A stretch of DNA of 64,000 nt from Daphnia pulex (lineage: Eukaryota > Arthropoda > Branchiopoda > Diplostraca > Daphniidae). This document shows positions 7,181-58,500 of this stretch, piece after piece. The stretch spans positions 9,982,001 through 10,046,000 of the forward strand of contig NC_060024.1 in assembly GCF_021134715.1 (NCBI RefSeq), written 5' to 3'. The position numbers and the translations under genes are program-made. The notes beneath the pieces were generated by a model. That model saw nothing but the letters and a program-made list of their open reading frames with translations. It made no database searches and was not told the DNA's origin. Each line of letters opens with the position of its first letter. Position 1 is the stretch's first letter.

Positions 7181-7882
7181 CTATCCTGAACGGGTCTCAG
7201 CCTCTGCAAAAGATCTTATAAAATCCATTTTAGCCGCTTGAAGCTCCGCTGGTTCTTGAACAGCTTGAGGAGAACCAAAAGAATCTAAAGGGATTGGGGA
7301 AAGGAGCGGCGGAACTGCAGGTCCTCTAAAGGCTTCCACGGCAGCCTCGATATCCTCTTTAAAATCTTGTGGCGAACCGTCATCCTTGTTTATACCGTCT
7401 TTTCGATTTTTGATTAGGTCGTTGAAAATATAATCGTAGAGAATAGTGAAATCACCCTTGACAAATGCGGGATCCGCCGAGGTGGAGGGCTCTGACTCGG
7501 GAAGAGCTGCAGGAGGATGTTGTTTCAGCATTGGATGCATTTCGTCTGGCCGTGGGAAGGCAGGAATGGTGTACTGGCCAGAGCATTGCTCATTATTTTG
7601 AAGAACTTCCAACAGGTTAAAAATGTAATTCAACAGCGAACTTATTAAGAAGTTGGCACTCATATTTGTATTGTAGTTGTTGTTGTAGTTTGTGTTGATG
7701 TTGGTGCTGAAAGGTTTCGACTGTGCGGGATTCATGCAGGCGAGCATTAAGGTGCAAGTAGTGACCTGAAAAACACACACACAAAAGTGGGAAACTTATT
7801 TGTCAAATTTCCATATTTTTGGTGACAATTTTGTTATTTCTTTTCGAGCACTTACCACAAATTTCATACTGATGACTGCCAT
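7181..7882 (-). CDS. NXN-4, secreted Asn-x-Asn-x paralogue with long tail
   Basis: Exon 1 is 7882-7856 (MAVISMKFV; translation could also begin at the second Met, 7867) and exon 2 is 7765-7181, with a 90-bp GT-AG intron, phase 0; 203 aa. A signal peptide (core VVTTCTLMLACMNPAQS) is followed by one NXN module: TNINTNYNNNYNTN, then FLISSLLNYIFNLLEVLQ. One Cys sits where NXN-1 has its Cys pair. The remaining 130 residues are Pro/Glu/Asp-rich with no domain I know. The intron interrupts the signal peptide, as in NXN-1 and NXN-2. A TATA box lies 46 bp upstream of the ATG. Function unknown. Confidence 0.8.
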
Positions 7883-17966: not shown

Positions 17967-18053
17967 GCCTTCTTAGCTCAGTGGTAGAGCGTTGGTCTTG
18001 TATCATTGATGTAAGGGAACCAAAGGCCGGGAGTTCGATCCTCTCAGGAGGCA
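17967..18053 (+). tRNA. tRNA-Thr (anticodon TGT), apparently with a 15-nt intron
   Basis: All cloverleaf arms pair: acceptor GCCTTCT with AGGAGGC (one G-U), D arm GCTC...GAGC, anticodon stem TTGGT with ACCAA, variable loop AGGCC, T arm GGGAG-TTCGATC-CTCTC (one G-U), discriminator A. The anticodon loop reads CTTGTA plus A only if 18003-18017 (TCATTGATGTAAGGG) is removed, exactly the canonical intron site between positions 37 and 38. That places anticodon TGT at 17999-18001. A TTTT run at 18057-18060 would end Pol III transcription. Without an intron the anticodon loop would be 22 nt, so the alternative is a pseudogene with an insertion. Confidence 0.8.
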
Positions 18054-18577: not shown

Positions 18578-20370
18578 ATGGAATCCGCCATAACTGACAA
18601 CGAAATTGATTTTTCCAAGGCGAACAAGAGACCGCAAATCCTGGCTGCTCTGGCAGGTAATAAATTGAAAATACCAGAAATATCTTTGTTAGACTTAAAT
18701 AAAGTGCCATGGTTTTAATAGCTGCTTTCAGCGCATTTGTGATGGGAACTACATTTGGATGGTCGTCACCCGTTCAGCCACAATTGCAACAGAATTCTAC
18801 CTTGAACACTGTGGTTGATCAGAACAGCACTTGGTACATCGACCTGGATGACGATCAAATGTCTTGGGTAGGTTCACTAATCAACATCGGAGCTTCCGTT
18901 GGAGCCATTTGCGGAGGCTATCTGATGGACAGGTTCGGACGCGTCTTTGTTTTGATGGCCGTGTCAATCCCTTTTTTCACAGGATGGCTCTTCATCGTCT
19001 TGGCCGTCGATCCTTGTAACACAATTGTTTGTTAGCTCATTTTAAGCCATTGTGAATTAAGAAGTTGATTTATTTAGTGATGCTCTACGTTGGACGTTTG
19101 TTGGGAGGACTGGCTGCCGGTATCTGTTGCGCTGTGGCACCTTGTTATATTGGTAAAAATTAATTTTCATATAATTACTGTCGGTACTGTTTGTAATCGA
19201 CTGCAATTCCAGGAGAAATTTCTATACCTGATATTCGTGGAACCGTTGGCTACTTTTTCTCAACCAACATTGGACTGGGAATTTTATTCACTCAGATACT
19301 TGGACTAGGTCTAGATTGGCGATTCATTTCCGGTGTGTGTGCCATCACTCCACTTGTACTTTTCGCTCTTTTATATTTTGTTCCGGAATCTCCCTACTTT
19401 CTCGTCAAAAACAGTACGTATGATGACATAATATCTGATGTTACCAGAAAGTTTTGTAAGTCAGTATAGTATTAATTATACGGTTTGACCTGGGAATCCC
19501 TTCAAGACAAGATGGATAAGGCTGCCAAAAGCTTACAATGGCTCCGAGGAAATCTGTTTAATGTGGAGGCTGAACTGGCTCAGATTAAATCGCGAGTAAT
19601 CGAGGACAAAACTCAACAACTAAACTTGAGGGACTTCTTAAGACCTTGGGCGTACAAACCTATTTTGATAGGAATTGCCGTAATGGTTTTCCAACAGTTT
19701 TCCGGTCTCAACGCAGCCCTGTTTTACTCCGTCGAAATCCTTCAAGTGGCCGGAAGCAATTTAGACGCTCTGGTGTCCGCTGTTGTTGTCATCATTACGT
19801 TGGTATTTATTTACAACAAAATTTACTTGGAAGTTTATTTGTTAATCGTTTCTTTTATCTGTTAAAAATTGCGAAAAGCTCATAGGAAACTTTCTCGGAG
19901 CTGTGGTGGTTGGTCGTCTCGGTCGCCGGCCTCTGTTTATGATTTCTGAAGCGATAGCTTGTCTTTCGATGTGTGTTCTTGGATCCTACTTTTACATCCT
20001 CACCAACGATCCGGAAGCTGCCAAACCCTTGGCTTGGTTACCATTGACATCCTTAATTGTCTTCATTTCCGGAATCGGCATGGGACTAGGACCCCTTCCT
20101 TGGATAATCTCCAGTGAGGTCCTACCTGCCAAAATCCGTGGACAGGGCAGTTCTATTGCTGCTTTGGCCAATTTTGGACTATCGTTTATCGTCACGAAAA
20201 CTTTCATCGATATCCAAAGAGCAGTGACACCGGCAGGTGCCTTTTGGTTCTACGGCGGTTTCTGCCTGTTAGGTATCCTCTTTGCCCTATTCCTTTTACC
20301 CGAAACCAAAGACAAGACCTCTGAGCAAATTGAAGCATTCTTCGTGACTCCCAATCACAACGTTGAATAG
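18578..20370 (+). CDS. Tret-1, Tret1-like facilitated trehalose/sugar transporter
   Basis: Six exons: 18578-18656, 18722-19015, 19078-19152, 19213-19413, 19507-19802, 19879-20370; 478 aa, the usual Tret1 length. It is an MFS sugar_tr transporter with twelve membrane segments at the plasma membrane, moving trehalose or hexoses down their gradient. Signatures in order: FGWSSPVQPQLQ in helix 1, DDDQMSWVGS, GGYLMDRFGR in loop 2-3, PESPYFLVK after helix 6, QQFSGLNAALFY in helix 7, GRLGRRPLF in loop 8-9, LGPLPWIISSEVLP in helix 10 and FLLPETK at the C-terminus. The second Arg of loop 2-3 is Val here. The acceptor of exon 5 (AAG|AC at 19506) is the least certain junction. An AATAAA lies at 20495. 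It is the most divergent member of the tandem array. Confidence 0.9.
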
Positions 20371-21184: not shown

Positions 21185-23132
21185 ATGAAGGAAAATATGG
21201 ATGAGCTAAAGAATCCTCCTTGCGTGGCCATTGATCTTGCAGTGAATAACGCCGCGTTCATCGGAGATGATGGGAAAGTAATTGATGTATCCTTAATTGA
21301 TAATAATATACCCCCCAAAATATCACGAAAACAAGAAATCGACTACTCTACGGCAACGAAAACTACGCAGTTTGGAGCTTCACTAGCTGGTAATAAAGTA
21401 ACCAACTTATTGTTCTATAGAGTTGAATAAATTTTTTTCTTTCTTTTAGCTGCTTTCAGTGCGTTCCTTTTGGGAACAACTTTCGGTTGGTCATCACCCG
21501 TTCAGCCACAATTACAACAAGTTTATACAACTTTTCGGATGAATGACTTAAATCAGACAAGTCTATTAAAGACACTGCACTTGGATGGTGATCAAATGTC
21601 TTGGGTTGGTTCGTTATTGAATATTGGCGCTATGATCGGAGCTCTCTGCGGAGGACTTTTAATGGACAAATTTGGCCGTCGATTTGTCCTGATGACGATG
21701 ACCTCACCTTACATCATTGGCTGGCTAATGATAACACTTGCATTCGATCCAAGTAAGCTACTATTTTTTAAGACAATTAATTTTTCTAAATTGAATTTGA
21801 ATTTGTATTTTTGTCTTCAGTTATGTTGTACGTCGGCCGAGTCATCGTTGGATTTGCTGGAGGGGTTTGTGCTGCAATCGCACCTTGCTACATCGGTACT
21901 AGTGTTTTGATATGGCAGTGGCAGTCAGGCTTTAAATTACTTACATGATGTCTTATAGGTGAGGTCTCAACTCCTACCATGCGAGGAACCGCAGGCTTAT
22001 TCTATTCAATGAATCGAGCTTCTGGAATATTGGTTACTTCATGCATGGGGATATGGCTTGACTGGCGTTGGTTATCGGCCATTTGTACAATTCAACCATT
22101 AATTTTACTTGTCGGTTTGTCCTTCGCTCCTGAATCGCCATACTTTTTAATCAAAAAAGGTTAGTTTAATGGTTCCAAAGTTGTTGGTTGTGGCGATTTT
22201 TAAGGCCTTAACGTATTAATTCCAACAGGAAGACAAAATGATGCACACAAAGCTATGCAGTGGCTTCGAGGTCCTAGCTACAGTATTGAAGCAGAAATGG
22301 ATCAAATTAAAACTCGAGTTCTGGACGACTCCCGAGAAGCCCCCAAATTATCCGACTTTTATCAACCCGGGGTGTTTAAACCTATTCTGATTGGAGTAGC
22401 TTTGATGATATTGCAACAGTTCTCCGGATTAAACGCTGCATCGTTCAATGCCTCGGAAATTTTCAGGATTGCAGATTTGGACTTTAATCGTCTTATTGGA
22501 GTAGTTGTAATCAGCGCTGTTCAAGTTTGTTTTTAAAAGAAATTAATTATTTTTTTGTAATTTGACTTTTAATTGCTTTATGCTGGTATTTGAATTAGGT
22601 CGTGGCAGTCGTCTTGTCTTCTTCGGTGCTGGTGAAAAGATTTTATCGAAGAACATTGTTCATAGTGTCTGTCGGATTTGCTTGTATTTCAATGCTCGCC
22701 TTAGGTGTCTTCTTTTACTATCTGGACTCGTCATCCTCACAAAATTTTACCAAATTCAAATGGATTCCTTTGGCATCTTTAATTGTATTTTTCGCTGCTG
22801 TCGGAATGGGTTTAGGGGGTCTTCCTTGGCTCATATCAAGTGAAATTCTTCCTGCTAAATTTCGAGGGCCCGGTAGTTCAATTGTCGCTTTCTCTAATTT
22901 TCTTATGTCATTTATCGTGACAAAGACGTTTATCGATATGCAACGTTTGATGACCCATGCTGGTGTTTTTTGGTTTTATTCCAGCATTTGTTTTGTGGGC
23001 GTTTTATTCGGGTTTTTTCTTTTACCCGAGACGAAAGATAGAACAGCCAATCAGATTCAGGCTTACTTTAAAAGTGATAGAAAATCTGAAGGTTCTGTGT
23101 TTCCCTCTGGAGGTGTCAGGACACCTCTGTGA
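21185..23132 (+). CDS. Tret-2, Tret1-like sugar transporter
   Basis: Six exons at the same positions and phases as Tret-1: 21185-21389, 21450-21752, 21821-21895, 21959-22159, 22229-22524, 22599-23132; 537 aa. The longer N-terminus (about 68 residues before helix 1) includes AAFIGDDGK and EIDYSTATK, shared with Tret-3 and Tret-4. Sugar-transporter signatures are complete: FGWSSPVQPQLQ, MDKFGRRFVLM, PESPYFLIKKG, QQFSGLNAASFN, LGGLPWLISSEILP, FLLPETKDRT. The loop 8-9 GRR is replaced by KRFYRR. Role: facilitated transport of trehalose or hexose at the plasma membrane; substrate not proven. The start was chosen as the first ATG after an in-frame AT-rich stretch. Confidence 0.9.
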
Positions 23133-24714: not shown

Positions 24715-27700
24715 CTACCGGGAAAATCAAATCTCTAACAACCACTGCCAAACGTCAACGTTTTCTATAACATAGCGAGGGCCGAGGGGGGTCTTTATTA
24801 GCGACAGGACCGTGGTTTTCCTGGACCTTCTAGTAAAGCTAGTGGCTTTAAAAACCTATGGCAAACCTCGAAACAAAATTAGAACTTGGTGCGATTTCAG
24901 ACTTACCGGACACATTTTGGTGTTCCTCTTTGGTTCTACGCTAGACACTAGCGTATTTATTACTCAGCAGGTGGACCAATGAATCATAACAGGTAGACCG
25001 ACAAATTTCAGAATAAACTGCCTTAATTGTGATTTTTTGCTAACTAAACGATTAAACTGTGAATTTTACTGGGTTATACTTTTGTTTGGATTTTGTTATT
25101 CAAAAGAAAACCTTTTGCTTTGAAGTTGCGCCGCTTTTCCCCTAGACTACCAGATGCGTGACTCATATGCACACTTTTTTGTAATTGAATATATATGTAG
25201 CCTAATGGAAAAACGACTTTTAAAAACCATTATTCGGCGCGTGTTATTTGCTGTATACGAAATCCCTCGCGTAGTATTCGAGCAACTGTACGTTTGTTAT
25301 GACTTACTTGACACATGAGTAACACTGTGAAATGTTTAGGTTAGCAGGAAAAGTCGCCGATTCAAAAGAAATTTCGGTTATTTCATTTAGAGCAATGGAA
25401 GAAGTGAACTCGGCTTTTGTCGGAGACGATGGGCAAGTGGTGAGCATTGCTGGCGGGCCCGTAACGTCACCAAAAAAACCGTCTGTGAAACACGAAATCG
25501 ACTATTCGACAGCAACCAAAAGACCACAGATAGGAGCTGCTCTTGCCGGTAAAAATTGAACTTATGATATAGAAGACGGTACTATCTAATTTTGTTACTC
25601 ATGCGGATTTTAATTTGCCCGGGTTTGTCTAATTCAATTTGAGAAATTACAGATTTTTCTTGCTCTCATATCTGATTCAAATAGCGGCTTTTAGTGCCTT
25701 CCTACTGGGAACAACGTTAGGTTGGTCGTCACCCGTTCAGCCACAACTGCAACACATTGCTGCTGGGAGTTTCTACCCGAATGATACGCAACTGGCAAAT
25801 ATCTGGCACATAGATCTGGACGATGACCAAATGTCGTGGGTTGGTTCATTGTTGAATATTGGCGCTATGATCGGAGCTCTCAGCGGAGGATTTTTAATGG
25901 ACAAATTTGGCCGTCGATTTGTCCTGATGATGATGAGTGCACCGTACATCATTGGATGGCTGATGATTTCACTTGCTGTCGACTCAAGTGGATTAACTTT
26001 TCTATAGATTTCGGTTGACGACCTTCAAAAGTAATCAAGCCTTTTTTCTCTCTTCCCTATAGGTATGTTATATGTCGGCCGTATTATTGTGGGTTTTTCT
26101 GGAGGCGTTTGTACGGCCATTGCCCCTTGTTATATTGGTATTGATACTTCATTCTTTAATTCCCCCCCCCCCCTAATTGCTTTAACGTACATTATGGCAT
26201 ATAGGAGAGATATCAACCCCCACCATGCGAGGAATAGTGGGTTTTTTCTTTTCGGTCAACCTTGCATCCGGCTTACTGGTGACTAGTGTGATGGGATTAT
26301 GGATGCACTGGCGCTGGTTATCGGTCATTTGTACAATTGAACCCATAATTTTCCTAGTGGGCATGATATGCGTTCCCGAATCGCCATATTTTTTAATAAG
26401 AAAAGGTTTGTGACATTGGTCAACACTAACAGCACAAATTTCAAAACCATTTTGTTTTCTTTTGCAAAGGGAAGCAAAGTGAAGCTTTTGGATCTCTTGT
26501 CTGGCTTCGGGGATCTACCTACAACATTAAAGCAGAATTACATCAAATAGAAACTCGAGTTCTCGAAGATTTCAAAGAAACTTGCAAAATTTCCGACGTC
26601 TGTCAACCGTGGGTGTTTAAACCTATTCTGATCGGAGTAGTTTTGATGTTACTGCAGCAGTTCTCCGGATTGAACGCTTTATCTTTTAATGCCGCAGAGA
26701 TTTTTAGGTTGGCAAATTTCAGCTTTGATCGTCTCATTGGAGTAGTTTTGATAAATGTTGCACAGGTACTTTTTACAAGTATTGGTGATGAGCATTTTTG
26801 GTACTTTATATCGGTATCTTTTTGCCTTTTTGTTTACAGGTTTCAGCGGTGGTTTTTTCTTCCGCCGTACTTGTAAAAAGGCTGAATCGAAGAACGTTGT
26901 TCATCATCTCAGAGGGAATAGCTTGTCTTTCAACGCTTTTAATGGGTTTCTATTTTCATTATTCGGGTCGTCCACATTCTCAGGAGATGGTCAACTTTAA
27001 ATGGATCCCATTGACCGCTATGATTGTCTTTTTTGCGGCCATAGGTTTAGGATTGGGAGCACTTCCGTGGCTCATATCCAGTGAAATTCTACCGCCAAGG
27101 TTCAGGGGACCTGGAAGCTCGATTGTCGCTTTCGCCAATTTTGCGATGTCATTTACAGTCACGAAAACATTTGTCGACATGAAGCGGGTCATGACACACG
27201 CTGGCGTGTTCTGGTTTTACTCTGGGGCTTGTTTTTTGGGCGTTATGTTTGGCTTGTTTCTCCTACCCGAGACGAAAGATCGGACACCACTTCAGATCCA
27301 AGTTTATTTCAGATCCCGAGAGAAGCGTATTTCTTCGTTACCAATTTTGACACCTAAATGATTTCTCTTGAAGTTACTCTACCCATTGATATTTGTTGAT
27401 TGGTAGATGATAGTATATTTAAATAAGACGCAAGTGTCTTTCTCTTGCATCTTTTAATTGCAAAGCAGTCTCATAAGGGAGCTGAATAAAAATTGTAAGA
27501 ATTTTCTGTTTAATTTGAAAGCCCAAATTAAATAAAACTTTGCGTAAACGATATTTTTAAATTTTTTGATAGCTAATCAACCAACCATGTAACCTGTTTG
27601 AAAATTTAAATGAAGATAGGCTATAGGTACTTTTATGGTTTGATTTTTGAATAATGTTTGTGTAATATTGAGAGCAATGTTCAAGCTTCTTATGTATTCT

Positions 27701-29527: not shown

Positions 29528-31548
29528 ATGTTTAGATTAGCGGGAAAAGTCGCCGATTCAAAAGAAATTTCGGTTATTTCATTTAGAGCAATGGAAGAAG
29601 TGAACTCGGCTTTTGTCGGAGACGATGGGCAAGTGGGGGACATTGGCGAGCCCGTAACGTCACCAAGAACACCGTCTGTGAAACACGAAATCGACTATTC
29701 GACAGCAACAAAGAGACCACAGATAGGAGCTGCTCTTGCCGGTAAAAATTATTTGATAGAAAACGGTACCATCTAATTTTGCTACTCATGCGAATTTCAA
29801 TTTGCCGGGTTTGTCCAATTCAATTTGAGAAATCACAGATTTTTCTTGCTCTCATATCTGATTCAAATAGCGGCTTTTAGTGCCTTCCTACTGGGAACAA
29901 CGTTAGGTTGGTCGTCACCCGTTCAGCCACAACTGCAACACATTGCTGCTGGGAGTTTCTACCCGAATGATAAGCAACTCGCAAATATTTGGCACATAGA
30001 ACTGGACGATAACCAAATGTCGTGGGTTGGTTCATTGTTGAATATTGGCGGTATGCTCGGAGCTCTCAGCGGAGGATTTTTAATGGACAAATTTGGCCGT
30101 CGATTTGTCCTGATGATGATGTCATGATGAGTGCACCGTACATCATTGGATGGCTGATGATTTCACTTGCTGTTGACTCAAGTGGATTAACTTTAAAATA
30201 GATTTTGGTTGACGGCCTTCAAAAGTAATCAAGCCTTTTTTCTCTCATCCAAAAGGTATGTTGTATGTCGGCCGTGTCATTGTTGGTTTTTCTGGAGGCG
30301 TTTGTACGGCCATTGCCCCTTGTTACATTGGTATTAATACTTCATACCGGTACCTAATTTATTTTTCTTTCGTTGATTTAACGCACGTTATGTCTTATAG
30401 GAGAGATATCAACCCCCACCATGCGAGGAATAGTGGGTTTTTTCTTTACGTTCAACCTGTCATGCGGTGTACTGGTTACTAGTGTGATGGGATTATGGAT
30501 GCACTGGCGCTGGTTATCGGTCATTTGTACAATCAAGCCCATAATTTTCATAGTGGGCATGATATGCGTTCCCGAATCGCCATATTTTTTAATGAGGAAA
30601 GGTTGGTGATATTTGTCAACACTAATAGCACAACTTTCAAAACCCCCTTTTTTTTTCGTTTGCAAAGGGCAGCAAAGTGAAGCTTTTGGATCTCTTGTCT
30701 GGCTCCGGGGATCTACCTACAACATTAAAGCAGAATTACATCAAATAGAAACTCGAGTTCTCGAAGATTCCAAAGAAACTTGCAAAATTTCCGACGTCTG
30801 TCAACCGTGGGTGTTTAAACCTATTCTGATTGGAGTAGCATTGATGGTAGTTCAACAGTTCTCTGGACTGAACGCCTTGTTGTTTAATGCCGCAGATATT
30901 TTTAGGTTGGCAAATTTCAGCTTTGATCGTCTCATAGGCGTAGTTTTGATAAATGTTGCACAGGTACTTTTTACGTAGTATTGTGATTGGCGTCTTAGAT
31001 ACTTATCGGTGTCCTTTTGGTTGCAGGTTTCAGCAGTGGTTTTGTCTTCCGCCGTACTTGTAAAAAGGCTGAATCGAAGAACGTTGTTCATCATCTCAGA
31101 GGGAATAGCTTGTCTTTCAACGCTTTTAATGGGTTTCTATTTTCATTATTCGGGTCGTCCACATTCTCAGGAGATGGTCAACTTTAAATGGATTCCATTG
31201 ACCGCTATGATTGTCTTTTCTATGGCCGTAGGTTTAGGATTGGGAGCACTTCCGTGGCTCATATCCAGTGAAATTCTACCGCCAAGGTTCAGGGGACCTG
31301 GAAGCTCGATTGTCGCTTTCACTAATTTTGCGATGTCATTTACAGTCACGAAAACATTTGTCGACATGAATCGGGTCATGACACACGCTGGTGTGTTCTG
31401 GTTTTACTCTGGGGCCTGTTGTTTGGGCATTATGTTCGTCTTGTTTCTCCTACCTGAGACGAAAGATCGGACACCACTTCAGATCCAAGTTTATTTCAGA
31501 TCCCGAGAGAAGCGTATTTCTTCGTTACCAATTTTGACACCTAGATGA
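29528..31548 (+). pseudogene. Tret-4, Tret1-like transporter with frameshift in exon 2
   Basis: Exons align one to one with Tret-3: 29528-29741, 29871-30181, 30256-30330, 30401-30601, 30668-30963, 31027-31548. Exons 3-6 have identical lengths and phases and would encode complete helices and motifs (PESPYFLMRKG, QQFSGLNALLFN, LPETKDRT). Exon 2 is 8 nt longer than in Tret-3: within the GATGATGATG run at about 30117-30130 an extra TCATGATG shifts the frame and gives an immediate TGA after residue 171. The protein would end after helix 3, so it cannot transport. Everything else is very close to Tret-3, so the break is recent, or it is an assembly or allele artefact. As a slippage-prone repeat, it could also be polymorphic. 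Confidence 0.75.
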
Positions 31549-32267: not shown

Positions 32268-34177
32268 ATGTTAGCGGAGAATACTAAAAAGTGGCCAAGG
32301 CAATCCAATAAAGAAGAAGAAAAGGCGACTGACGAGTACATCATAGTACCGCCGGATGGAGGATATGGGTGGGTCGTCACGGTGGCCAGTTTTTTGTGCA
32401 TTCTAATTTCAGATGGCATACTCTATTGCTTCGGATTGATCATCTCTGAGGTGGAACGTGTTTTTGACGAACCTGTTGCGAAAGCCGCTTGGATATTTTC
32501 CATTTTCAACGCGATATCATATTTCTCAGGAATGGCAATATTTATCTTATAAGACAACTGAAAATGTAGAACAATTCGTATAACCTTGTGTATGTTTGTT
32601 TTGTATAGGCCCCGTAGCCTCTGCATTGAGCAACCGGTTCGGTTTTCGTGTCGTCGTCATAACGGGCAGTTTATTTGGTTTCGTCGGTCTCCTGACTTCT
32701 GCATTCGCTCAATCGGTGGAAAATTTGTTTTTCACTCTTGGTCTTCTTTTTGGATTTGCAATTTGTTTGGTGTTCACTCCAATAATCGTCAACATCAGCT
32801 TTTATTTCGACAAAAAGCGTGCTCTGGCTACCGGAATCGCCATCTGCGGCTCTGGAGCCGGCACTTTTGTCTTTGCACCTGTTGTTAATTGGCTATTAAA
32901 AACTTATGCACTCAGAGGGACATTTCTCATTCTGGTAAGTGTACGCAGTTATCATGTCATTTGCACTTTCCTAATCACAAGTATCGTGTTATTCTTTGAT
33001 CCCAAAATGTTAATGGGAAACCTTTTTTTTATTTCTACCTTAAAAGAGTGGGATTTATTTGAACTGTGGAGTTTTTGGAGCATTACTCATACCGCTGAAA
33101 TCTCAACGGCGCAACAAGGTGCGATCAGAAACAGTTACACTGTTAGAGCAAAAAGATATCGAAACATTGATGTTCGAGAAATCTCTGATTACAAAAGAAA
33201 TTGAATTTAATTCCAGAAATAATCTAAACTTTTTTGAAGAAGAAAAAGTGGACAGCAAAACAAAGAGGGAAAATGTTAATCAAAAATATTTTTCAAACTT
33301 TTCCAAGTTGTTCAAATTTTCGCTGTTTCGATCTCCGACTTTTGTTGTCATTTGCGTTTCTAGTTTCTTCCAATCTTTCGGATGGTTAGTTCCTTTCATG
33401 TATCTGGCAGGTAATCTAATTTACCTTCTTCAGGATTCTAATTCACCTCCTAATAATTATGTTCTGCAATGTAGCTCATGCGGTTAACATGGGAATACCA
33501 AACGAGAAGGCGTCGTTTCTTCTATCGATTGTGGGAATCTGTAATATGATGGGACGCATTATCAACGGATGGCTTTCTGACCATCCTAAGGTTATACTAC
33601 ACTCAATTTTGTGTTGACAGCAGTCAAATATGTTTTCTTTATACTTACAGGTTAGCGTGCTCTTTCTCAATAATGTGGGTTTGACAGTCTCCGGTTTGTT
33701 GATTGTGGTTTGCCCATTGTGCATCTCGTATTATCAACTTCTTATTTTCTCCATAGCACTTGGCTTATTTACCTGTAAGATTTTGTGTTTGAAAATAAGT
33801 GATGCAACAGGCTAACATACTTCATCTTTTCGTTTTTCTTATTAGCCTGCACCGCTGTAACGCGACCGATTTTACTTGGGGAATATTTAGGGTTGGAAAA
33901 TGTAAACAACGCTTACGGGTTCATGCTCGTTTTTTACGGTGTCGCAACCCTCTTCGGAACTCCTATGGCCGGTACTCGCAGAATATTGACCAATTTAATG
34001 TCATACCTAATGATTATTGTGTTTGTTTTTTTCTATACGGAACATGATTACATAGGTTTACTATATGACACTTTGGGTGATTATCATGGAGCTTTTTATC
34101 TTGCCGGATCTTCCATTCTTCTGTCTGCGTTTGTATGTTATCCGCTAGGCAAAATTAACCACTGGGAGAAGAAATAA
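32268..34177 (+). CDS. MCT-1, SLC16-like monocarboxylate transporter
   Basis: Seven exons: 32268-32529, 32609-32934, 33047-33410, 33475-33590, 33651-33774, 33846-33971, 34056-34177; 479 aa. SLC16 family signatures are clear: PPDGGYGWVV (residues 28-37, start of helix 1) and [20 protein letters not shown] (about 153-172, helices 4-5). Twelve membrane segments with a charged loop of about 70 residues between helices 6 and 7. Such transporters carry lactate, pyruvate, ketone bodies or related substrates, often with H+, across the plasma membrane; the substrate here is unproven. Oddity: intron 1 (32530-32608) begins GAATGG, not GT. Its phase and place equal those of MCT-4, which has GTAAGT. Unspliced reading meets TAA at once, so the exon must be joined through a GA donor for a full product. 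It lies 0.7 kb after Tret-4. Confidence 0.85.
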
Positions 34178-34821
34178 CTTTTCAATATTAGAATGTTAAT
34201 TACTTTTCCACTTCGTGTTTTTTTTTTCGATATAATTTGAAGATAAATGGCTAAGATATGTAAATTTGGAATAATTTTAATTGTTACTTAAAACTTTTAT
34301 TCAAAGATTGCAATCATTAGATAAATAGCCGAATAAGATAAGCAACCAAATGTATTTTAAATAAGGCGAGAATCTTATTATACGACAGTGAAACAAAAAC
34401 TTAAAGCACAGTGCCAACTAATTACTGCAAATTTTTGGTTCTACGCTAGCGGCTAGACACTTGCGTATTTATTACTCGGCAGGTGGGCCAATAAAAAAAA
34501 GGTAGACCGATAGATTTAATTGCTTTAATTTTGATTAATTACTAATTGAATAATATAACTGTGAATTTTACTTAGGTTTACTTTCGTTTGGATTTTTTAT
34601 TCAAAAGAAAACCTACTGCGTTGAAGTTGCGCCACTTTTACTCCAGACCACCAGATGCGTGACTAATAATCACACCTTTTCCTGATTGAAAATATGTGTA
34701 GTAGGAAGCGACGTTTAAAACCATTAGTCGGCTCTTGTTGCTTGCTGTTAGGGAAATACGAAATCACTCGCGTTGTTTTTGAGTAATTGTATGTTTGTAA
34801 GGACTTACATGAAACTGTGAA
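34178..34821. other. Intergenic: MCT-1 3' UTR then Tret-type promoter copy
   Basis: The first 250 bp are AT-rich 3' flank that also resembles the MCT-2 3' flank (37586-37800). From about 34430 the sequence matches the upstream DNA of Tret-3 (24930-25331) and Tret-4, including GGTTCTACGCTAG and AGGTAGACCGA, leading into the Tret-5 relic. Confidence 0.5.
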
Positions 34822-35140
34822 ATGTTTAGATTAGCGGGAAAAGTCACCAATTCAAATGAAATTTCGTTTATTTCATTTAGAGCAATGGAAGAAGTGAACT
34901 CGGCTTTTGTCGGAGACGATGGGCAAGTGGGGGGCATTGGCGGGCCCGTAATGTCACCAAAATCCCCGTCTTTACAACACGAAATCGACTATTCGCCAGC
35001 ACAGATAGGAGCTGCTCTTGCCGGTAAAAATTGCACTTAAGATAAAAGGTGGTACTGATTTAGTTTACCTCATTCTATTTGAGGTATCACAGATTTTTTA
35101 CTCTCATATCTGATTCAAAGGCGGCATTTAGTGCCGTTTA
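34822..35140 (+). pseudogene. Tret-5 relic: first exon and start of second exon only
   Basis: Exon 1 (34822-35023) encodes MFRLAGKVTNSNEISFISFR and continues like Tret-3, with a short in-frame loss near the end (YSPAQIGAALAG instead of the longer STATKRP-containing version), then the GTAAAAATTG donor. A shortened intron follows and exon 2 begins at about 35119 (GCGGCATTTAGTGCC) but breaks off at about 35138 into low-complexity DNA. The remaining four exons are missing. With MCT-2 just downstream, this is what is left of a copied Tret-MCT pair. Confidence 0.8.
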
Positions 35141-35545
35141 CGATCATCGTTAACGAGTGATTTTCTTAACACCGAAAACGATTTACAAAAAAAAAAAAAA
35201 AAAAAACGAAAAATTCGTCATTGTTGTGCAAAATTTCGTTTTCCGTGTTTTATTTTTTATAATGCTATAAATTTCTTTATGAAGCAAAAAAAAACGTTAT
35301 TAAGTCAAAAAGTTAAATGACATTAATTAATCATTATTAATCAGCCAAATCGTTCCATTGCACGGTTGTTGTCATTGCAGACAATTACGTTTCAAGTCTA
35401 AAGAAAAAAATATATTCACTTTCTTGGAAAAAAAAACGAATTGAAAACGATCGTTTCGTTAACGATCGTTTTCATTTTAAAAGAAAAAACGAAATAAAAA
35501 CGAAAATATGAAAAATTAAAAACGAAACTAAAACGAATTTTAAAT
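35141..35545. repeat. Low-complexity AAACGA-rich tract with a palindrome
   Basis: Dominated by A-runs and degenerate AAAACGA / TCGTTTT words, with A18-20 near 35190 and a self-complementary stretch around AACGATCGTTTCGTTAACGA at about 35446-35470. It starts exactly where the Tret-5 exon 2 breaks off and ends before the MCT-2 promoter, so it fills the deletion. Confidence 0.55.
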
Positions 35546-35666
35546 TTACTATTGCGGCAAACACTACGGGTAAACCTGATCAGTATTTTGGCGCGCGAAC
35601 AAACCAACGTTGTACCATTAAAGTATTTTTTATCCGGTTTGGTATTGAATAGCTTGTGAAAAGAAA

Positions 35667-37585
35667 ATGAAAGCGGAGAATACTAAAAAGTGGAGAAGGC
35701 AAACAAACAATGAAGAAGAAAAGGCGACTGACGACTACATCATAGTACCGCCGGATGGAGGATATGGGTGGGTCGTCACGGTGGCCAGTTTTTTGTGCAT
35801 TCTAATTTCAGATGGCATGCACTATTGCTTCGGATTGATCATCTCTGAGGTGGAACGTGTTTTTGACGAACCTGTTGCGAAAGCCGCTTGGATATTTTCC
35901 ATTTTCAACGCGATATCATATTTCTCAGGAATGGCAATATTTATCTTATAAGACAACTGAAAATGTAGAACAATTCGTATAACCTTGTGTATGTTTGTTT
36001 TGTATAGGCCCCGTAGCCTCTGCATTGAGCAACCGGTTCGGTTTTCGTGTCGTCGTCATAACGGGCAGTTTATTTGGTTTCGTCGGTCTCCTGACTTCTG
36101 CATTCGCTCAATCGGTGGAAAATTTGTTTTTCACTCTTGGTCTTCTTTTTGGATTTGCAATTTGTTTGGTGTTCACTCCAATAATCGTCAACATCAGCTT
36201 TTATTTCGACAAAAAGCGTGCTCTGGCTACCGGAATCGCCATCTGCGGCTCTGGAGCCGGCACTTTTGTCTTTGCACCTGTTGTTAATTGGCTATTAAAA
36301 ACTTATGCACTCAGAGGGACATTTCTCATTCTGGTAAGTGTACGCAGTTATCATGTCATTTGCACTTTCCTAATCACAAGTATCGTGTTATTCTTTGATC
36401 CCAAAATGTTAATGGGAAACCTTTTTTTTATTTCTACCTTAAAAGAGTGGGATTTATTTGAACTGTGGAGTTTTTGGAGCATTACTCATACCGCTGAAAT
36501 CTCAACGGCGCAACAAGGTGCGATCAGAAACAGTTACACTGTTAGAGCAAAAAGATATCGAAACATTGATGTTCGAGAAATCTCTGATTACAAAAGAAAT
36601 TGAATTTAATTCCAGAAATAATCTAAACTTTTTTGAAGAAGAAAAAGTGGACAGCAAAACAAAGAGGGAAAATGTTAATCAAAAATATTTTTCAAACTTT
36701 TCCAAGTTGTTCAAATTTTCGCTGTTTCGATCTCCGACTTTTGTTGTCATTTGCGTTTCTAGTTTCTTCCAATCTTTCGGATGGTTGGTTCCTTTCATGT
36801 ATCTGGCAGGTAATCTAATTTACCTTCTTCACGATTTTAATTCACCTCCTAATAATTATGTTCTGCAATGTAGCTCATGCGGTTAACATGGGAATACCAA
36901 ACGAGAAGGCGTCGTTTCTTCTATCGATTGTGGGAATCTGTAATATGATAGGACGCATTATCAACGGATGGCTTTCAGACCATCCTAAGGTTATACTACA
37001 CTCAATCCTGTGTTGTTTACGGCAGTCGAATGTGTTTGCTTTATACTTACAGGTTAGCGTGCTCTTTCTCAATAATATGGGTTTGACAGTCTCCGGTTTG
37101 TTGATTATGGTTTGCCCATTATGCATCTCCTATTATCAACTCGTTATTTTTTCCATAGCCCTCGGTTTATTTACGTGTAAGCTTATCGTGTTTGAAAATA
37201 AGTGATGCAACAGGCTAACATACCTCATCTTTTCGTTTGCTAATTAGCCTGCACCGCTGTAACGCGACCGATTTTACTTGGGGAACTTTTGGGGTTGGAA
37301 AATGTTAACAACGCTTACGGGCTCATGCTCGTTTTTTTCGGAGTCGCAACCCTCTTCGAAACTCCTACGGCTGGTACAGACAAAAATTTTCACAATTAAT
37401 TTAATTTCACAATGATTATTGGCCTTCTTTCCGTCTTTTTCTGTATGGAATATGTTTGCATAGGTTCACTACATGACACTTCGGGTGATTATCATGGAGC
37501 TTTTTATCTTGCTGGATCTTCCATCCTTCTGTCCGCGTTTTTATGTTATCCTCTTGGCAGAATTAATCGCTGGGAGAAGAGATAA
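35667..37585 (+). CDS. MCT-2, SLC16-like transporter, near-twin of MCT-1
   Basis: Seven exons: 35667-35928, 36008-36333, 36446-36809, 36874-36989, 37053-37176, 37248-37373, 37464-37585; 479 aa. Both SLC16 signatures and the loop are as in MCT-1. From about 35823 to 36784 the sequence, introns included, shows no difference from MCT-1 by eye; introns 4-6 and exons 5-7 diverge clearly (for example the C-terminal half of helix 11, with ETPTAG against GTPMAG). Such an abrupt change points to gene conversion of the 5' half. Intron 1 (35929-36007) starts GAATGG as in MCT-1. Role as for MCT-1; no break seen in the frame. Confidence 0.85.
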
Positions 37586-38099
37586 CTTTTTCCAGATTAG
37601 AATGTTTCCACTTCGTTTTTTTTAAAAAGAAATTTCCAACCTCTATATGCCATATCATTTGAAGTTATATAGGCTAAGATAAAAAAATTTAATAATCTTA
37701 ACTGTTACTTTAGAGTTTAGACTTTTATTCACGCATTACAATCATTAGATAAACAGCCAAAAAAGATAAGCAACTAAATGTATAAATAAGACATTGCACA
37801 ACAGTGGAACCAAACTAAAAGCACGGTGCCAACTGGTGCAAACCAGTTATTCGTCCACAGTCCACACGTTGTTCACGAACTTCAAGGCTAAGCGCATCCT
37901 GTTAATTAATAATACATGCCCATTTTCCCCAAAGCCAAAAAAAAAAATTTTAAAAAATAAAAAAAAAAGCAAAATAAAAGACTGGAAGACAAGCTGTCAG
38001 ATCAGTATTCTGACGGTAGTGATTAGACCAACAAGTCTTGTATCTAGTTCAGGTTTAGTCAGTATATAGTCCACAGTAGCAACAGAACCTTAATTTGTA
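37586..38099. other. Intergenic between MCT-2 and MCT-3
   Basis: MCT-2 3' flank, resembling that of MCT-1, then an A-rich stretch near 37935-37980 and the MCT-3 5' region. No gene seen. Confidence 0.4.
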
Positions 38100-40116
38100 A
38101 TGGCTAGCGTTATAAGTGTAGAAAAAAAGTATTCCGGCGACGAAAATGAAACGGAAAAATTTGTCAAAGAAGAAAAGGTGACTTACGAATATGTTACAAT
38201 TCCGCCGGATGGAGGATTTGGCTGGATCATCACGGGGGCCAGTTTGTTATGTCTATTGATTTCGGACGGCATTCTCTTCAGCTTCGGATTGATACTCTCT
38301 GAGTTGAGATACGTTTTTGACGAACCTGCTGTTAAAATTGCTTGGATGTTTTCTATTGAAAACGCAACTTCATTAATCTCAGGAAAGACAAAACATTTAG
38401 ATCTTTTCATTCTCGACTTAATTTGTAATAATGGCTTCTTATCAATTTTACAGGACCGATAGCTTCGGCATTGAGTAATAAGTTCGGATTCCGTGCTGTT
38501 GTCATATCTGGCAGTCTACTGGGTTTCGTGGGCCTTTTGACCTCTACGTTCGCCTTCTCAGTCGGGACCCTGTTTTTCACTCTTGGTGTGCTTTTAGGAA
38601 CTGCCGACGGCTTGGTTTACACTCCAATTGTCGTTGGTGTCGGCTTCTATTTTGATAAAAGACGTGCGCTGGCCACTGGAATCACTCTCTGTGGATCCGG
38701 AGCAGGCGCTTTTGTCTTTGCCCCACTCATATCTTGGCTATTAGAAACCTATGCACTCAGAGGAACATTCCTTATTTTGGTAACTACACTATTTTAATAT
38801 GCTTGTTTGCTGCATTTCAGTAATTATGCTAGCAGTAAAATTAACAATGCGAAAATTCTTTTTCAAAGAGTGGACTTTATCTGAACTGTGCAGTTTTTGG
38901 CTCGCTGCTAATTCCTGTCAAACCTGTTCGACGAAAGAAAATAGTGGAAGATGTCAGCCTCAATCTTCTGCCGCCTGACGGCATAGGGCCATCAGCAATT
39001 GAAAATCCGCCAACACCGAATGACGTGAAAGGGAATAATAAAGGAGAACAAGCGCAATCGAATATGGATATCTCCATAACAGAAAATCAGGTTTGGGTTT
39101 CCTTTTGATTTAATGATCGAAATGGCACAAGAGCTTAACTTATATTTCTAACTACGATTTACTGAAGCCTGTAACAAACGCAAATGAAAAGTTATCCATC
39201 AAAAAATGTTTTTTCAGCATCCTTAACTTGTTCAAATTCTCGTTGTTTCGGTCACCAACCTTTGTCGTTATATGCGCTTCAAGTTTTTTCCAATCTATCG
39301 GATGGTTTGTACCATCCATGTATATAACAGGTAAGGACAATTTTGAGCCGATTGTTTAATAAGTAACAGTTTTTTAAAGATTTTTCACCCTATGCAAAGC
39401 TCATGCGGTAAACATGGGGGTACCGAAAGAAAAGGCGTCTTTCCTGCTATCAATTCTTGGAATATCTATCATGATAGGACGCATATTAATTGGATGGATC
39501 TCTGACCATCCTAGGGTGTGTATTTCATGCTTGAAAAGCTATTTTCAAAAATGCAATCCTAACGACACATTATTATTTTTTATACAGGTCAGCGTATTGT
39601 TGCTGAATAACATCGGCTTGACAATCTCAGGTTTATTGATTTTGCTGTGCCCATCAATATTAGTCTCGTACGAGTTGCTAGCCCTTTTCTCCACCATACT
39701 GGGACTCGCCGCGTGTAAATAAATTTCATTTCAATCTATTGTTTGAAAGTATAATAGAAGATAGCTTTGCATTTTAAAAAATAGCCTGCACAACAGCTAC
39801 AAGATCAATTTTACTTGGGAAGCTTTTGGGTTTGGAAAATGTGAATAACAGTTACAGCTTCATGCTAGTGTTTCATGGAGTAGCTACCGTCATTGGAATC
39901 CCTTTAGCCGGTATCTACGCAATAATTAAATTTTCTTTCTTAGATTTAAGTTCTTAATTTATGTTTTCTTTTGTGCTTTAAATGACAGGATTGCTATTTG
40001 ATATTTTTGGTGACTTCCACATTACCTTCTATTTTGCTGGTTTTTCCGTTCTACTTTCCGCGTTTATTTGTTATCCTCTTGGAAGGATTAACCGTTGGGA
40101 GAAAATGCGCAGTTAG
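38100..40116 (+). CDS. MCT-3, SLC16-like monocarboxylate transporter
   Basis: Eight exons: 38100-38382, 38454-38779, 38869-39090, 39168-39330, 39400-39515, 39588-39714, 39785-39910, 39989-40116; 496 aa. Signatures: IPPDGGFGWIIT at the start of helix 1 and YFDKRRALATGITLCGSGAG in helices 4-5. The loop between helices 6 and 7 is split by an extra intron (39091-39167) that MCT-1 and MCT-2 lack. Intron 1 (38383-38453) begins GAAAGA: the same non-GT type and site as in MCT-1, although the intron sequences no longer align, so this is separate evidence that the GA donor is kept. AATAAA sites lie at 40125-40135. A divergent member of the local MCT array; substrate unknown. Confidence 0.85.
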
Positions 40117-48301: not shown

Positions 48302-50912
48302 TTATGCAACAGCAACTGGTGCCGGTTCAGGAACCGGCTTAACTTTTTGCTTGTTGTGTTGGGTGGCATTGTTCCGCTTCTTCTCCCATCGGTTGATGTA
48401 ACCGAGCGGGTAACAGAGGATGCCGGAGATGAGAATCATAGATCCAGACAAGTAGAACGAAGCGTCATAATCGTTCGTGGCATCGTAAAACATACCTTGA
48501 ATTAAAAGTGTTCAACCGAAAATGATTTTTTAAAAGATTCATTCAAAATAAAAAATACAAAAAATGAATAAAACATTGAACGTACTGGCCAAGGGACCGC
48601 CCACCGTGGCGGAAACACCAGTAAACATCAAACAAAGTCCAAACGCGTTAGTCAGATTCTCCAAACCGAGTAGTTCCACCATGAGGATGGAACGGAGAGA
48701 GGCGAAGCAGGCTGCAATATAATCCATCAAAAACGGATGATATGATTTGACATTCATTGTAAAAATTTAAAAGAAAAATAGCCACAAACCGATCGATAAG
48801 CCAAATAGGCATGCGTAGACGATAAGCATCTCGTAGGCGGGGAAGAATGGAGTTGCGATGGTCACAACTCCTCCGAGAGTCAGGGCGGCGTTGTTGACCA
48901 TCAGAACGTTGACTTTGGGATGATCGGAAAGGGCTCCGCAAACAACGCGACCCAAAGTGTTGGTGATGCCGATGATGGAGAGCAAGAAAGAGGCCGATTC
49001 CTTGTCGGCTCCGAGCTGCTCGGCTCTGGCGGCTAAGAACATGAACGGCACGAAGAAGCCGAGGAAAGTGATGAAACTGGCAAAGCAGAGCAGATTGAAC
49101 GTGGGAGATTTGAAGAGAGAAAATTGAATCAGCGAGGAAACGGCTCGCACGCATCCGTTCGATTTCTTCTTTCCGTCCGTTTCCTCGACGATTTCCGGAA
49201 TCTAAAAATAATAAAAACAAGAATTATTATTCGTTCAATTGTGAATCAATAAATAATAATAATACCCTAGTGACGGATGCGTGATAGCTGGCGGGGTTTT
49301 CTCTGTACTGCGGTAGACGCTGTAAACTGCCCGTGTAGAAAGCGTCGTCTCGATTCAACGGCTGGACTTCGTCTTGATTGGCCAGCGAGCGTTTGCTGCC
49401 GGCAGCTGCCAATAGGAGCGGAGTCTCCTTCTCCTTCTTGCCGAGTGAACTGGCCGAATCGGTTAATGTCGACGACCGTTTGGCTTTGATGCCGACCAAC
49501 TTGACGGTGTTATTCAGTGAATTGGTCGACGAGTGAAAGTGGTCCGTCTGCTGCTGCTGGTTCATTGTTTCCTGCTGCTCATCGTTGCGCAGCTTCTCGT
49601 CCCGCTCTCGCTTGATCCTCACCATCAACGGCGTTCCAGCCGAGACTTCTTCGTCGGCCAATTGGCGCCGGGTCACTTTGCTCTTCTTCGTCGGCTCCAA
49701 CGGCCGAAACATGGCCCCGAAAATGGCGCAGTTCAATACCAAACCAGCCTGTTTTTAAAAAGAAATAACACATCTAATTGCAATTAAGCAAATTCATAGA
49801 ACTAAACGCCACACACTCGAGGCTATGAAAGTCCGCATAAACAATTCCGGCAAAGTGGAGGGTATACAAGATTATGCAAAATATATACAGCACAAACAAA
49901 CTGCTGGCCGTCTGTTTATGGAGTTGCGAAGCCATCAAAGATTTCGTTGTGCAAAATAAACGAAAAAGAAAAATAAATAAATGTTTTTCTCTTACGTGGA
50001 TGAGAAGTGTTCCGCGCCATCCGTAATAGCCGAGGAGCCAGGTGGTGAAAGGGGCCAGGACGAAGGTCCCGATTCCGGAGCCGCAGACGGCGATGCCGGT
50101 GGCAAGGGCTCGCCTCTTCTCAAAGTAGAAACCGACGGCGACGACGGCTGGAACGTAGACCAGACCCATGCCAATGCCACCCAATACGCCGATGAAGACG
50201 TAGAGGAACTCGACGGACATGGCCAGCGAGGCGACGGCAAAGCTTAAGCCGGCCACGACGCTCCCGGCGCACGCCACCGTCCGAAAACCGAACCGAGTCG
50301 CCAACGATGACACGAAAGGTCCTGTACACATAAATTTTTGTTTTTTTGTTTGAGCGCGGGACACGCGTCACATTTTTAGTCACGCTAGTTCAGATTACAC
50401 GGCACAGACAAGATTACAGTTATATATATATAGCTATAGATACATTGGTAGACAAACTTTGGTATCCGTGACCATATTCAAAAACAAACCAAAACAATTG
50501 CCCAACATATTTCGCGTCAAAATCGTCCCAGCATTCCTTCACGTTCGACAAGACAAACGGTTCGGCATTTTTTAAACGACGACTACCCAATTTGGTGTCG
50601 AGAGAGTCAAATTATTATGGTCAGAAAAAGGAACTTACCGGCCAAGAGGTAAAAGCCGGCCAGGAGAGATGCCACCCATGAGACGGTGGAGACGGGAACT
50701 TCGAAACTTTCGGCCAAATTGGTGACGACCAGTCCGAACGAAAAGATGATACCGTCGACGATGATGTTGCAGAAGAAGGAGGCGATCATAACGACCCAGC
50801 CCCATCCGCCATCCGGCGGAACTATGTGAGCTGGTCCGTCATCCGAATCTTCTTCCACCATTTCGCCATTCTTCATCTCTTTCAATTCCACTGCAGATTT
50901 GTTCGTCGCCAT
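48302..50912 (-). CDS. MCT-4, SLC16-like monocarboxylate transporter, long loop
   Basis: Six coding exons: 50912-50639, 50321-49996, 49748-49266, 49201-48790, 48711-48586, 48495-48302; 604 aa. Signatures: [12 protein letters not shown] (residues 31-42) and [20 protein letters not shown]. The loop between helices 6 and 7 is about 170 residues, rich in Lys/Glu/Ser with a short Gln run (MNQQQQ) and a DAFYTGSL motif also seen in MCT-5 (DVFYTGSV). The tail ends PVPEPAPVAVA. Intron 1 (50638-50322) has a normal GTAAGT donor at the position where MCT-1/2/3 have GA. A 3' splice site at 50963 just upstream of the ATG suggests a 5' UTR intron whose donor may be at 53779. Plasma-membrane solute carrier; substrate unproven. 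Confidence 0.92.
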
Positions 50913-55508: not shown

Positions 55509-58500
55509 CTATGTTTGAACGGCCCGTGGTGAACCTTCACTGGATTTAAGTTGTTTCATTTCACCTGTGAAAGAAATAAAAAAATTTGTTTTCATTTTGA
55601 ATTGAAACTTGTGTAAAGTAAAACTAGAACGCCGGTATGAATAAACATGACACGACGAATCGATGGGATTTCGATGGATTTCCTGGTGTCTGGTGGTCCC
55701 GCAATAATTTTTTCTCCCCCAGAAATTCTCAATAGAGATGATTCATTTAATACCTGCTGATTTAGCAAGTTCGGCGTCTTCCTTGCGCTTGACCCAGCGC
55801 CGGACCAATGGCACCATGAAGGAAATGGCCGACGAGATGAAGAGGAAAATGCCGGCCAACCAGAAGGGAACGTCGTAACTCTGCGTCATATCAAAGACGG
55901 AACCTACGACCAAAAAAGTCAAAAGAAAGAAATGGAAAATGAAGTTGTCGGATCAAACAAACAAAGTCCAAAATCAATTTACCGGCTAGCGGAGGTCCGA
56001 CAATGGCGGCGACGCCTCTCAGCAAACACAAAAGTCCGAACGCGTTGGTGAGTTGTGCAATGCCCAGCAAATCGACCAGGACGATGGAAGTGAGTGCAAT
56101 GAAAGCCGCTGTAAAAAGAAAAAAGGAATTCTTAAAGAAATTCTAACTGAAATCAACTCGTGTGGGCGGGTGACGTACAGGAAAAGAGGCCGAAACAGCC
56201 AGAGGCGATGCAGAATCCGACGTAATCGTAGCAGAATGGCACGCAGAAAACGGCCACTCCACTCACGGCGATACAGACGTTGGTGACGAAGAGGGAATCG
56301 ACGGCCGGGAAGTCGGAAATGTAGCCGGAAATGAGACGGCCCACAGTGTTGGTGATGCCAATAATCGAGAGGAGAAAGGCGGCCGTTTCTTCGTCGATAC
56401 CCTGAGAATTAATTTAATCAGTTATTTTATAATCCCCCGTGAAATTATCGTGAATCATAATCCAGTCGGCTCTAATTTACTTTGGTGGTGGCGGCGTCGA
56501 TGATGTAGACGAACGGGACGTAGAATCCCAACATGCCAAAGACGTTGGAGACGCCGAGGAAGAGGAAGACGGGATCTTTCATCAAGGAGAAATCCATAAG
56601 GCCGGAAATTTCTTTGCGCGCCGATTCCGGTATGCAACGGCAGCAGCCGCCGCCGGATTTCTTTCCGGCTTTGCCAGACTGAACGGCTTTGGGGATCGAT
56701 ACAATACTTTGGCGGTAGGAGCCCAGTGATTTCTGGCTCTGATATTCTGGCAGATTGGTGACGCTGCCCGTGTAGAAGACATCTTTACGGGCCAGCGGGC
56801 GGGCCAAATCCTTCTTGGAAGCCGATAAGCTGCTCACATCATCTTTACTGCCACAGGCGCCAGCCGAACGGCGCTTCACGTTGCTCGCTTCGCCATTCGA
56901 GACGCTGGTGCGGCTTCCCCTTAATGCGGCCGCAGCTTTGCCTATCAGATACACCCGTCACGCGGAATGAAAATTGAATTATACAAATGGCCGGAATAAA
57001 AAAGAAAAAGGAAAAAATCTATTTTTGGATAGTTACCGTCTTCAAGGAGTTTGTCACTTTCTTTGGTGTCGTCTTCTAAATTATCTTTGAGTTGCGAGTT
57101 TTTCATTTGTTTGTCTTCCTTTTTCTCCTGGGACTGGGCGGCATCGCCGTTGGAAGGATCGCCTTTAGCTTCGCTGATGGTCGGCATGCGGGTGGCAGCG
57201 TGAGCTCCTGACAGCTGACAAAATGGGAGGGAAAAAATAAAGAAAAAAAAAAGAGAATCAAGTCGAATTCCGGTACAGTCGTGTAGTCGAAAATCACCTC
57301 ATCCAGATCGAAACTCGAGTGCACTCCGGGATCGACGTTGACAGGCACTTTGAGCCTTTTTTCGTAGGAACCGTCTGGCAACTGGACTGTGAAATATTGG
57401 GAGCCCATGAGAGAGCCGCGCTCCAGCTGGGCGGCTTTATCCTCCGCCATCCGCTGCAGTAAAGGTTTGCACTTTTTCTTAGGCGCCTCAAGGGGCCTCA
57501 TCAAGGAACCGAAAACCTGTCAGTCGTGAAGAGAGAGTAAGGAAAAAAAAGAGGATTGTCATGAGAATTGGATTGATTTCGCACGGAGATTGACAGAAAA
57601 ACTCACGGCGCAGTTGAAGATGATGCCGGCCAGGATGAGATTTGCTCCTTTCCAGTCGTAGTGTTCCAGCAGCATGGCCGCCAGCGGTGCGAAGACGAAG
57701 GTACCGAAACCGGATCCACAGACGGCGATGCCCGTGGCCAGGGCTCGTTTCTTTTCAAAGTAATAGCCGACGGAGACGATGGCCGGCAGGTAGATGAGTC
57801 CGAATCCGATTCCGCCGACGATGCCGTAGGTGACCATGAGCATGGCCACCGAATTGGACAAGGTAGACAGGGCGAAAGCGGCCATGCCGATGACGCTGCC
57901 CATAATACAAGTTGTCCGGCAGCCGAATTTGTTGGTGAGGGCCCCGACGATGGGTCCGCAGCTCAGGTAGACGCCGGCCAGGAGCGAGCCGACCCAGGCC
58001 ACTGTTCCTTTGCCTTCGTTGAAGTAGATGACGAATTTCGGGAGGAAGACGCCGAAAGTGTAGGCAATTCCGTCGACGATGAGATTGCAGAGGAAGGAAG
58101 ACATGACGATCACCCATCCCCATCCACCGTCCGGCGGAATCGGAATATCGTGTATCTATTTAAGAAAGACAAAATTAAAACAAAACCAAATGCAAATGCG
58201 TATAGGAAAAATGAATTGAATACCTCACAGATGTCTTCTCCATCGCATTCCGGGCTGGTTGCTTCTGGATCCGCTCTTTTGGCATCTTGTTTACTCTCGC
58301 CGGCCTGTTTTTTCCGGAATGCAAAAGAGAAAATGGCTTTAAGGTTTACAGCTGCACACATTAGACGAGAATGTCTGTTTTGATGTTAATGAGCCAACAT
58401 GAAACTTGGAAAGGATCTTTTCTCTTTCCCTCCGTCTATTATCCGACCCCTGGATGACCCTGATTGCCTTCAGGCTTCGTAGTTCACATCCATCAAACAG

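Follow-up and report, generated by a model that had tools for sequence, protein, structure and literature searches.

A probable GA-AG intron shared by three tandem SLC16-like transporter genes of Daphnia pulex

The DNA considered here is a 64,000-nucleotide (nt) window of the Daphnia pulex genome (assembly GCF_021134715.1, contig NC_060024.1, positions 9,982,001 to 10,046,000), in which three SLC16-like genes, MCT-1, MCT-2 and MCT-3, lie in tandem on the plus strand, with MCT-4 and MCT-5 farther along on the minus strand. Our subject is the first intron of the three tandem genes, which begins with GA in place of the usual GT. MCT-1 (32268..34177, +) has seven coding exons and a predicted product of 479 amino acids, with matches to Pfam MFS_1 (3.8e-44) and to MCT2 in PDB (2.2e-51); MCT2, MCT10, MCT1 and MCT8 account for the top 12 of the 15 solved sequences that it matched. 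MCT-2 (35667..37585, +), also with seven coding exons and 479 amino acids, and MCT-3 (38100..40116, +), with eight coding exons, 496 amino acids and an MFS_1 match of its own (1.1e-40), were tied to MCT-1 through protein alignment. On the basis of the MFS_1 domain and a similarity to MCT proteins that extends over most of their length, the three are predicted members of the SLC16 monocarboxylate transporter family. MCT-4 (48302..50912, −) has six coding exons and encodes 604 amino acids, and MCT-5 (57559..58155, −) is a single open frame with no intron where the junction site falls.

Intron 1 of MCT-1 (32530..32608, +) is 79 nt long and runs from CAG/GAATGG to TATAG/GCC, where the slash marks the cut. 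That of MCT-2 (35929..36007, +) is identical to it, from CAG/GAATGG to TATAG, and that of MCT-3 (38383..38453, +) spans 71 nt from CAG/GAAAGA to TACAG/GAC. All three lie in phase 1, and the coordinates, donor dinucleotides and AG ends are as a previous, sequence-only reading of this DNA had given them. That reading had also claimed that removal of the intron restores the junction, and it does: with intron 1 spliced out, MCT-1, MCT-2 and MCT-3 encode 479, 479 and 496 amino acids with no internal stop, and with intron 1 kept, translation ends after 94, 94 and 120 amino acids. The solved MCT2 sequence aligns with MCT-1 without a gap over the junction. At the same codon and in the same phase, MCT-4 carries a GT-AG intron of 317 nt (50322..50638, −; CCG/GTAAGT to ACAG), which had likewise been pointed out and is seen both on the minus strand and in the protein alignment; GT is therefore likely to be the ancestral state. 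The remaining 16 introns of MCT-1, MCT-2 and MCT-3 are all GT-AG. Among the 44 modelled introns of eight window genes (MCT-1 to MCT-4 and the sugar-transporter copies A to D), 41 donors are GT and 3 are GA, a tally that counts donors only and takes in the five introns of copy D, a pseudogene, as well as the introns of MCT-2, itself for the most part a copy of MCT-1. Taken together, the reading frame, the protein homology and the GT-AG intron of MCT-4 at the same site make a noncanonical GA-AG intron in these genes a well-supported prediction, and we infer that the intron is probably real, functional and spliced out.

The position of the join was considered by an exhaustive scan of MCT-1 and MCT-3 (MCT-2 is the same as MCT-1 over intron 1 and exon 2), taking donors from 45 nt before the intron and acceptors to 45 nt beyond it, irrespective of their dinucleotides. 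This comprised 9,289 joins in MCT-1, of which 1,647 were open, and 8,109 in MCT-3, of which 2,203 were open. The products were scored against MCT2 (the PDB 9l0b stretch), MCT-4 and MCT-5, making six scans in all. The GA-AG join was level with the top score in three of the six, where it was the sole AG-ending join among the ties listed, and every GT-AG, GC-AG and AT-AC join scored at least 9 points under it.

The donor context is what would be expected if a mismatch at position +2 is tolerated through good pairing elsewhere, which, with two independent sites, amounts to modest evidence. An AG/GNA context is present at all three GA donors (two of them independent), as compared with 6 of the 41 GT donors. 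All three read CAG/GAA and so have the AG before the cut that is obligate, and the A at +3 that is nearly always present, at the GA and GG donors of Eurytemora affinis (PMC5714493). Outside +2, the GA donors match the consensus at 6, 6 and 7 of 8 positions, against a mean of 4.9 for GT donors. Their computed pairing with the 5′ end of U1, at −4.6 and −6.4 kcal/mol, falls inside the range of native GT donors (n = 12; −2.1 to −12.0 kcal/mol). No small nuclear RNA gene was detected in the window by Rfam at gathering thresholds. Intron 1 of the three genes is very probably an ordinary U2-type intron, removed by the major spliceosome, with A for T at donor position +2.

Several results weigh against this interpretation. 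At least 6 consensus matches are also found in 9 of 31 GT donors when those of MCT-2 and copy D are left out; by this measure the GA sites are good, not outstanding. In the other three of the six scans, some join without recognised borders outscored the GA-AG join, by 1 point (MCT-1 against MCT-4), 11 points (MCT-1 against MCT-5) and 5 points (MCT-3 against MCT2), and in the scan of MCT-1 against MCT-5 it was outranked by at least six joins. The array does contain pseudogenes, transporter copy D being frameshifted. The synonymous divergence (dS) between MCT-1 and MCT-3, near 1.4, is saturated, and evidence for constraint on MCT-1 and MCT-2 since the GA arose is thin because the block that bears it has recently been homogenised. 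Finally, in human minigenes, five of six +2T>A variants failed and the sixth worked at 12% (PMC12805630).

The age of the GA donor depends on the history of the paralogues. MCT-1 and MCT-3 are 62.6% identical, with a dS of about 1.4 and a nonsynonymous to synonymous ratio (dN/dS) of 0.18, which indicates that both lineages have been functional during the greater part of their separate history. Between MCT-1 and MCT-2, intron 1, exon 2 and intron 2 are free of differences and exons 5–7 differ by 8–11%, a sharp boundary that recent gene conversion or a mosaic duplication would explain. The GA donors of these two genes therefore count once, as had been proposed from their near-identity at this place. 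The intron 1 sequences of MCT-1 and MCT-3 align no better than shuffles (whole-intron p 0.31), bearing out the statement that the MCT-3 intron no longer aligns, and intronic alignment of the two genes gave nothing beyond shuffles in any of the six comparable introns. Common descent of the GA donor in MCT-1/2 and MCT-3 is likely, and, since the introns themselves cannot be aligned, we infer a single origin as the simplest reading.

The alternative that survives best is that the GA donors of MCT-1/2 and MCT-3 arose independently, through separate +2 changes in a strong CAG/G context. This would be compatible with GA-AG splicing, and we give it an appreciable but clearly minor probability. In its favour, the unalignable introns retain no trace of shared descent, and one common position in six comparable introns is not decisive alone. 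However, GA donors make up about 0.02% of Drosophila introns (PMC4528330), so a double hit would need a local cause, and it is simpler to assume a single change before the two lineages parted. The earlier claim that loss of the donor T was inherited accordingly stands as the simplest reading and not as a certainty, since GA could also stem from two separate changes or from an ancient conversion. A comparison with viral contigs yielded no orthologues: the donor region had no matches there, and of four stretches that matched a pattern for relatives of MCT-1, none encodes one.

It could also be that GA is disabling, in which case MCT-1/2 and MCT-3 would be null alleles or pseudogenes of recent date, with the donor gone but no further lesions acquired yet. 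Dead copies are indeed found in the array, namely the frameshifted copy D and a sugar-transporter 5′ remnant near 34884, and between MCT-1 and MCT-2 synonymous changes are not in excess in exons 1–3 (3.5, against 8.5 nonsynonymous ones, too few to judge constraint). Nevertheless, we consider this explanation unlikely. It requires a one-site lesion common to three genes, in two lineages at saturated dS, with no other stop or frameshift, and exons 4–7 of MCT-1 and MCT-2 are constrained (dN/dS 0.26; Fisher p 1.2e-4, the numbers of sites having been back-calculated from the dN/dS computation). When neutral substitution in a gene of this size was crudely simulated, 1 of 300 runs was free of stops at K 0.1, whereas about a third of the runs were so at K 0.02, which leaves room for a very recent loss.

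Use of another, canonical junction, which would change the protein near the helix 2–3 region, is much harder to sustain. A broader scan of joins in the three genes, reaching 90 nt into exon 1 and 120 nt into exon 2, does give in-frame open GT-AG joins (2 in MCT-1, 2 in MCT-2 and 8 in MCT-3) and three GC-AG joins, all in MCT-3. In MCT-1 and MCT-2 the GT-AG donor lies 72 nt upstream, and 24 or 27 residues would be lost. The sequence-only reading had held that no nearby GT gives an open join; each of these two genes does have the two in-frame joins just described. With one exception, every open GT-AG or GC-AG join in the scan deletes 16 residues or more. The remaining one, a 38-nt GT-AG intron in MCT-3 (38425-38462), adds 11 residues and keeps nearly all of the others; it had been overlooked in the claim that the sole GT in reach in MCT-3 would leave a 29-bp intron and a TGA. 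Scored against MCT2, MCT-4 and MCT-5, this join falls 26, 30 and 31 points short of the GA-AG join, respectively, and its intron would be shorter than the shortest of the 44 modelled introns (60 nt). No canonical donor-acceptor pair among the open joins of the broad scan is common to MCT-1 and MCT-3, no GT-AG join exists in MCT-1 within the narrower range of the exhaustive scan, and the last 20 bases of exon 1 contain no GT in any of the three genes. Open AT-AC joins numbered 19, 19 and 16 in MCT-1, MCT-2 and MCT-3. The GT-AG, GC-AG and AT-AC alternatives were thus enumerated and rejected, on account of deleted residues, the 38-nt intron or a lower homology score.

A U12-type or Ire1/HAC1-type intron in place of a U2-type one is the least credible explanation of all: the three best AT-AC joins of each gene lack an ATATCC donor, and the GA donors GAATGGCA and GAAAGACA match the U12 donor consensus, which is RTATCCTT-like, at 3 and 2 of 8 positions by hand count. 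A U12-type GA-AG intron has been reported in zebrafish actr10 (PMC2831892), and in Drosophila the HAC1-type intron of Xbp1 is bordered by CA-TG (PMC4528330), as opposed to the AG ends found here.

For an ordinary U2-type intron with A at +2, the course of events could have been as follows. A T-to-A change at +2 would have occurred in the ancestor of MCT-1, MCT-2 and MCT-3, likely after its split from the MCT-4 lineage. The CAG before the cut, together with G at +1, A at +3 and G at +5, would have stayed complementary to U1 and compensated for the mismatch, such that U1, and then U6, could still dock on the GA donor, the acceptor being a normal AG. A probable side effect is less efficient splicing, with part of the transcript retaining the intron and stopping early. 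That the ordinary spliceosome is able to use GA is shown by two cases: the GA-AG allele of intron 12 in Trema orientalis SYMRK, where GC has changed to GA within the species (PMC10668435), and the human ATM c.6347+2T>A minigene, which gave 12% full-length transcript (PMC12805630). It is doubtful, in our view, that a benefit of weak splicing is what has maintained the GA donor from a time before the divergence of MCT-1/2 and MCT-3. If it were so, the slow intron would hold back transporter output via intron retention and decay, perhaps in an adjustable manner.

What the locus offers is a probable long-lived GA-AG intron among modelled genes that otherwise have GT donors. Its interest lies in this probable age, with GA common to paralogues beyond saturated synonymous divergence, and in the chance, slight as it is, that a weak donor was retained for regulation. 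The GT-AG paralogue MCT-4 permits a direct comparison at the same site. There is also a practical side, as gene-finders and read filters that require GT or GC would break genes like MCT-1, MCT-2 and MCT-3. For example, an isoform study in Daphnia magna discarded isoforms with noncanonical splicing (PMC11061156).

The sugar-transporter copies that share the array have a GT donor at all 20 modelled introns. The frames are intact in copy B (21185-23132) and copy C (25395-27361), and copy D (29591-31548, +) is a pseudogene with a frameshift in exon 2. In copy A (18578-20370), the donor of intron 5 is GT and the modelled acceptor breaks the frame; an in-frame AG can be found by eye a few bases upstream. 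The sugar transporter has also left a 5′ remnant ahead of MCT-2, at 34884-35100, so that the array has the look of a transporter–MCT pair that was repeated, with part of the transporter since deleted. Elsewhere in the window, two near-identical 182-amino-acid frames (818-1366 and 4900-5448, both −) are asparagine-rich and start with a hydrophobic stretch, and frames at 6146-6592 (+) and 7181-7795 (−) have shorter asparagine-rich stretches. Two long divergent frames, at 12519-13583 (−) and 14627-15760 (+), the second with a repeated domain, resemble what we take to be cuticle proteins. A tRNA gene at 17967-18053 (+) is the sole Rfam match of the window at gathering thresholds.

GA donors had been presented in the sequence-only reading as extremely rare, with the vertebrate FGFR genes as the described case. 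Near-uniqueness of this kind does not hold, since they are documented in Eurytemora, Drosophila, Oikopleura, Trema and human minigenes, and intron 1 of MCT-1, MCT-2 and MCT-3 is an addition to an already documented GA-AG class and not an unprecedented kind. Within Daphnia, a search of the Daphnia, Cladocera and crustacean literature, mostly short of full texts, yielded no report that we recognised of a GA-AG intron in any gene of the genus, and there is nothing on GA-AG in the available parts of PMC7318467 and of the tunicate paper PMC13326754. Of 120 neointrons in D. pulex, 118 are GT-AG, one is GC-AG and one is GG-AG, and relatively stringent splicing in Daphnia was suggested by the authors (PMC4202315).

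Among the known systems, vertebrate FGFR1-3 (Brackenridge 2003, as described in PMC5714493 and PMC7072748) are similar in having a GA donor in paralogous genes. There, however, the GA donor serves alternative splicing and is said to need a canonical site six nucleotides upstream (PMC7072748), whereas in MCT-1, MCT-2 and MCT-3 the final 20 nt of exon 1 contain no upstream canonical donor, and no alternative isoform is evident from their sequence. The Trema SYMRK allele is comparable as a working gene in which one donor has turned to GA, but from GC, where here the change was probably from T to A and is common to old paralogues. In the human ATM minigene a +2 T-to-A donor is still spliced, with the difference that full-length transcript reached only 12% and that one of six +2T>A variants was functional. 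Drosophila melanogaster also has rare, lone GA-AG introns within a GT-AG arthropod genome: FlyBase holds 12 among ~60,223 introns, 8 of the 12 in coding sequence and 7 without a similar alternative splice (PMC4528330). All 12 of these are supported by RNA-Seq junctions, while the Daphnia intron is known from sequence, and sharing among paralogues was not seen in the parts consulted of the fly study. A further resemblance is to Eurytemora, where 31 GA and 5 GG donors were counted among 297 introns in ten focus genes (Robertson 2017, PMC5714493) and where, as in Oikopleura, GA-AG combinations are numerous (Frey and Pucker, PMC7072748). The GA-AG borders, the AG before the cut, the A at +3, the need for removal to obtain a full-length protein and the lack of a canonical donor nearby are all common to both. 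In Eurytemora, however, GA and GG donors are likely genome-wide, as opposed to one site among 44 introns here, and those in the five ionotropic receptors aligned with other arthropods are unique, recent introns, whereas in D. pulex a paralogue retains a GT-AG intron at the very same position.

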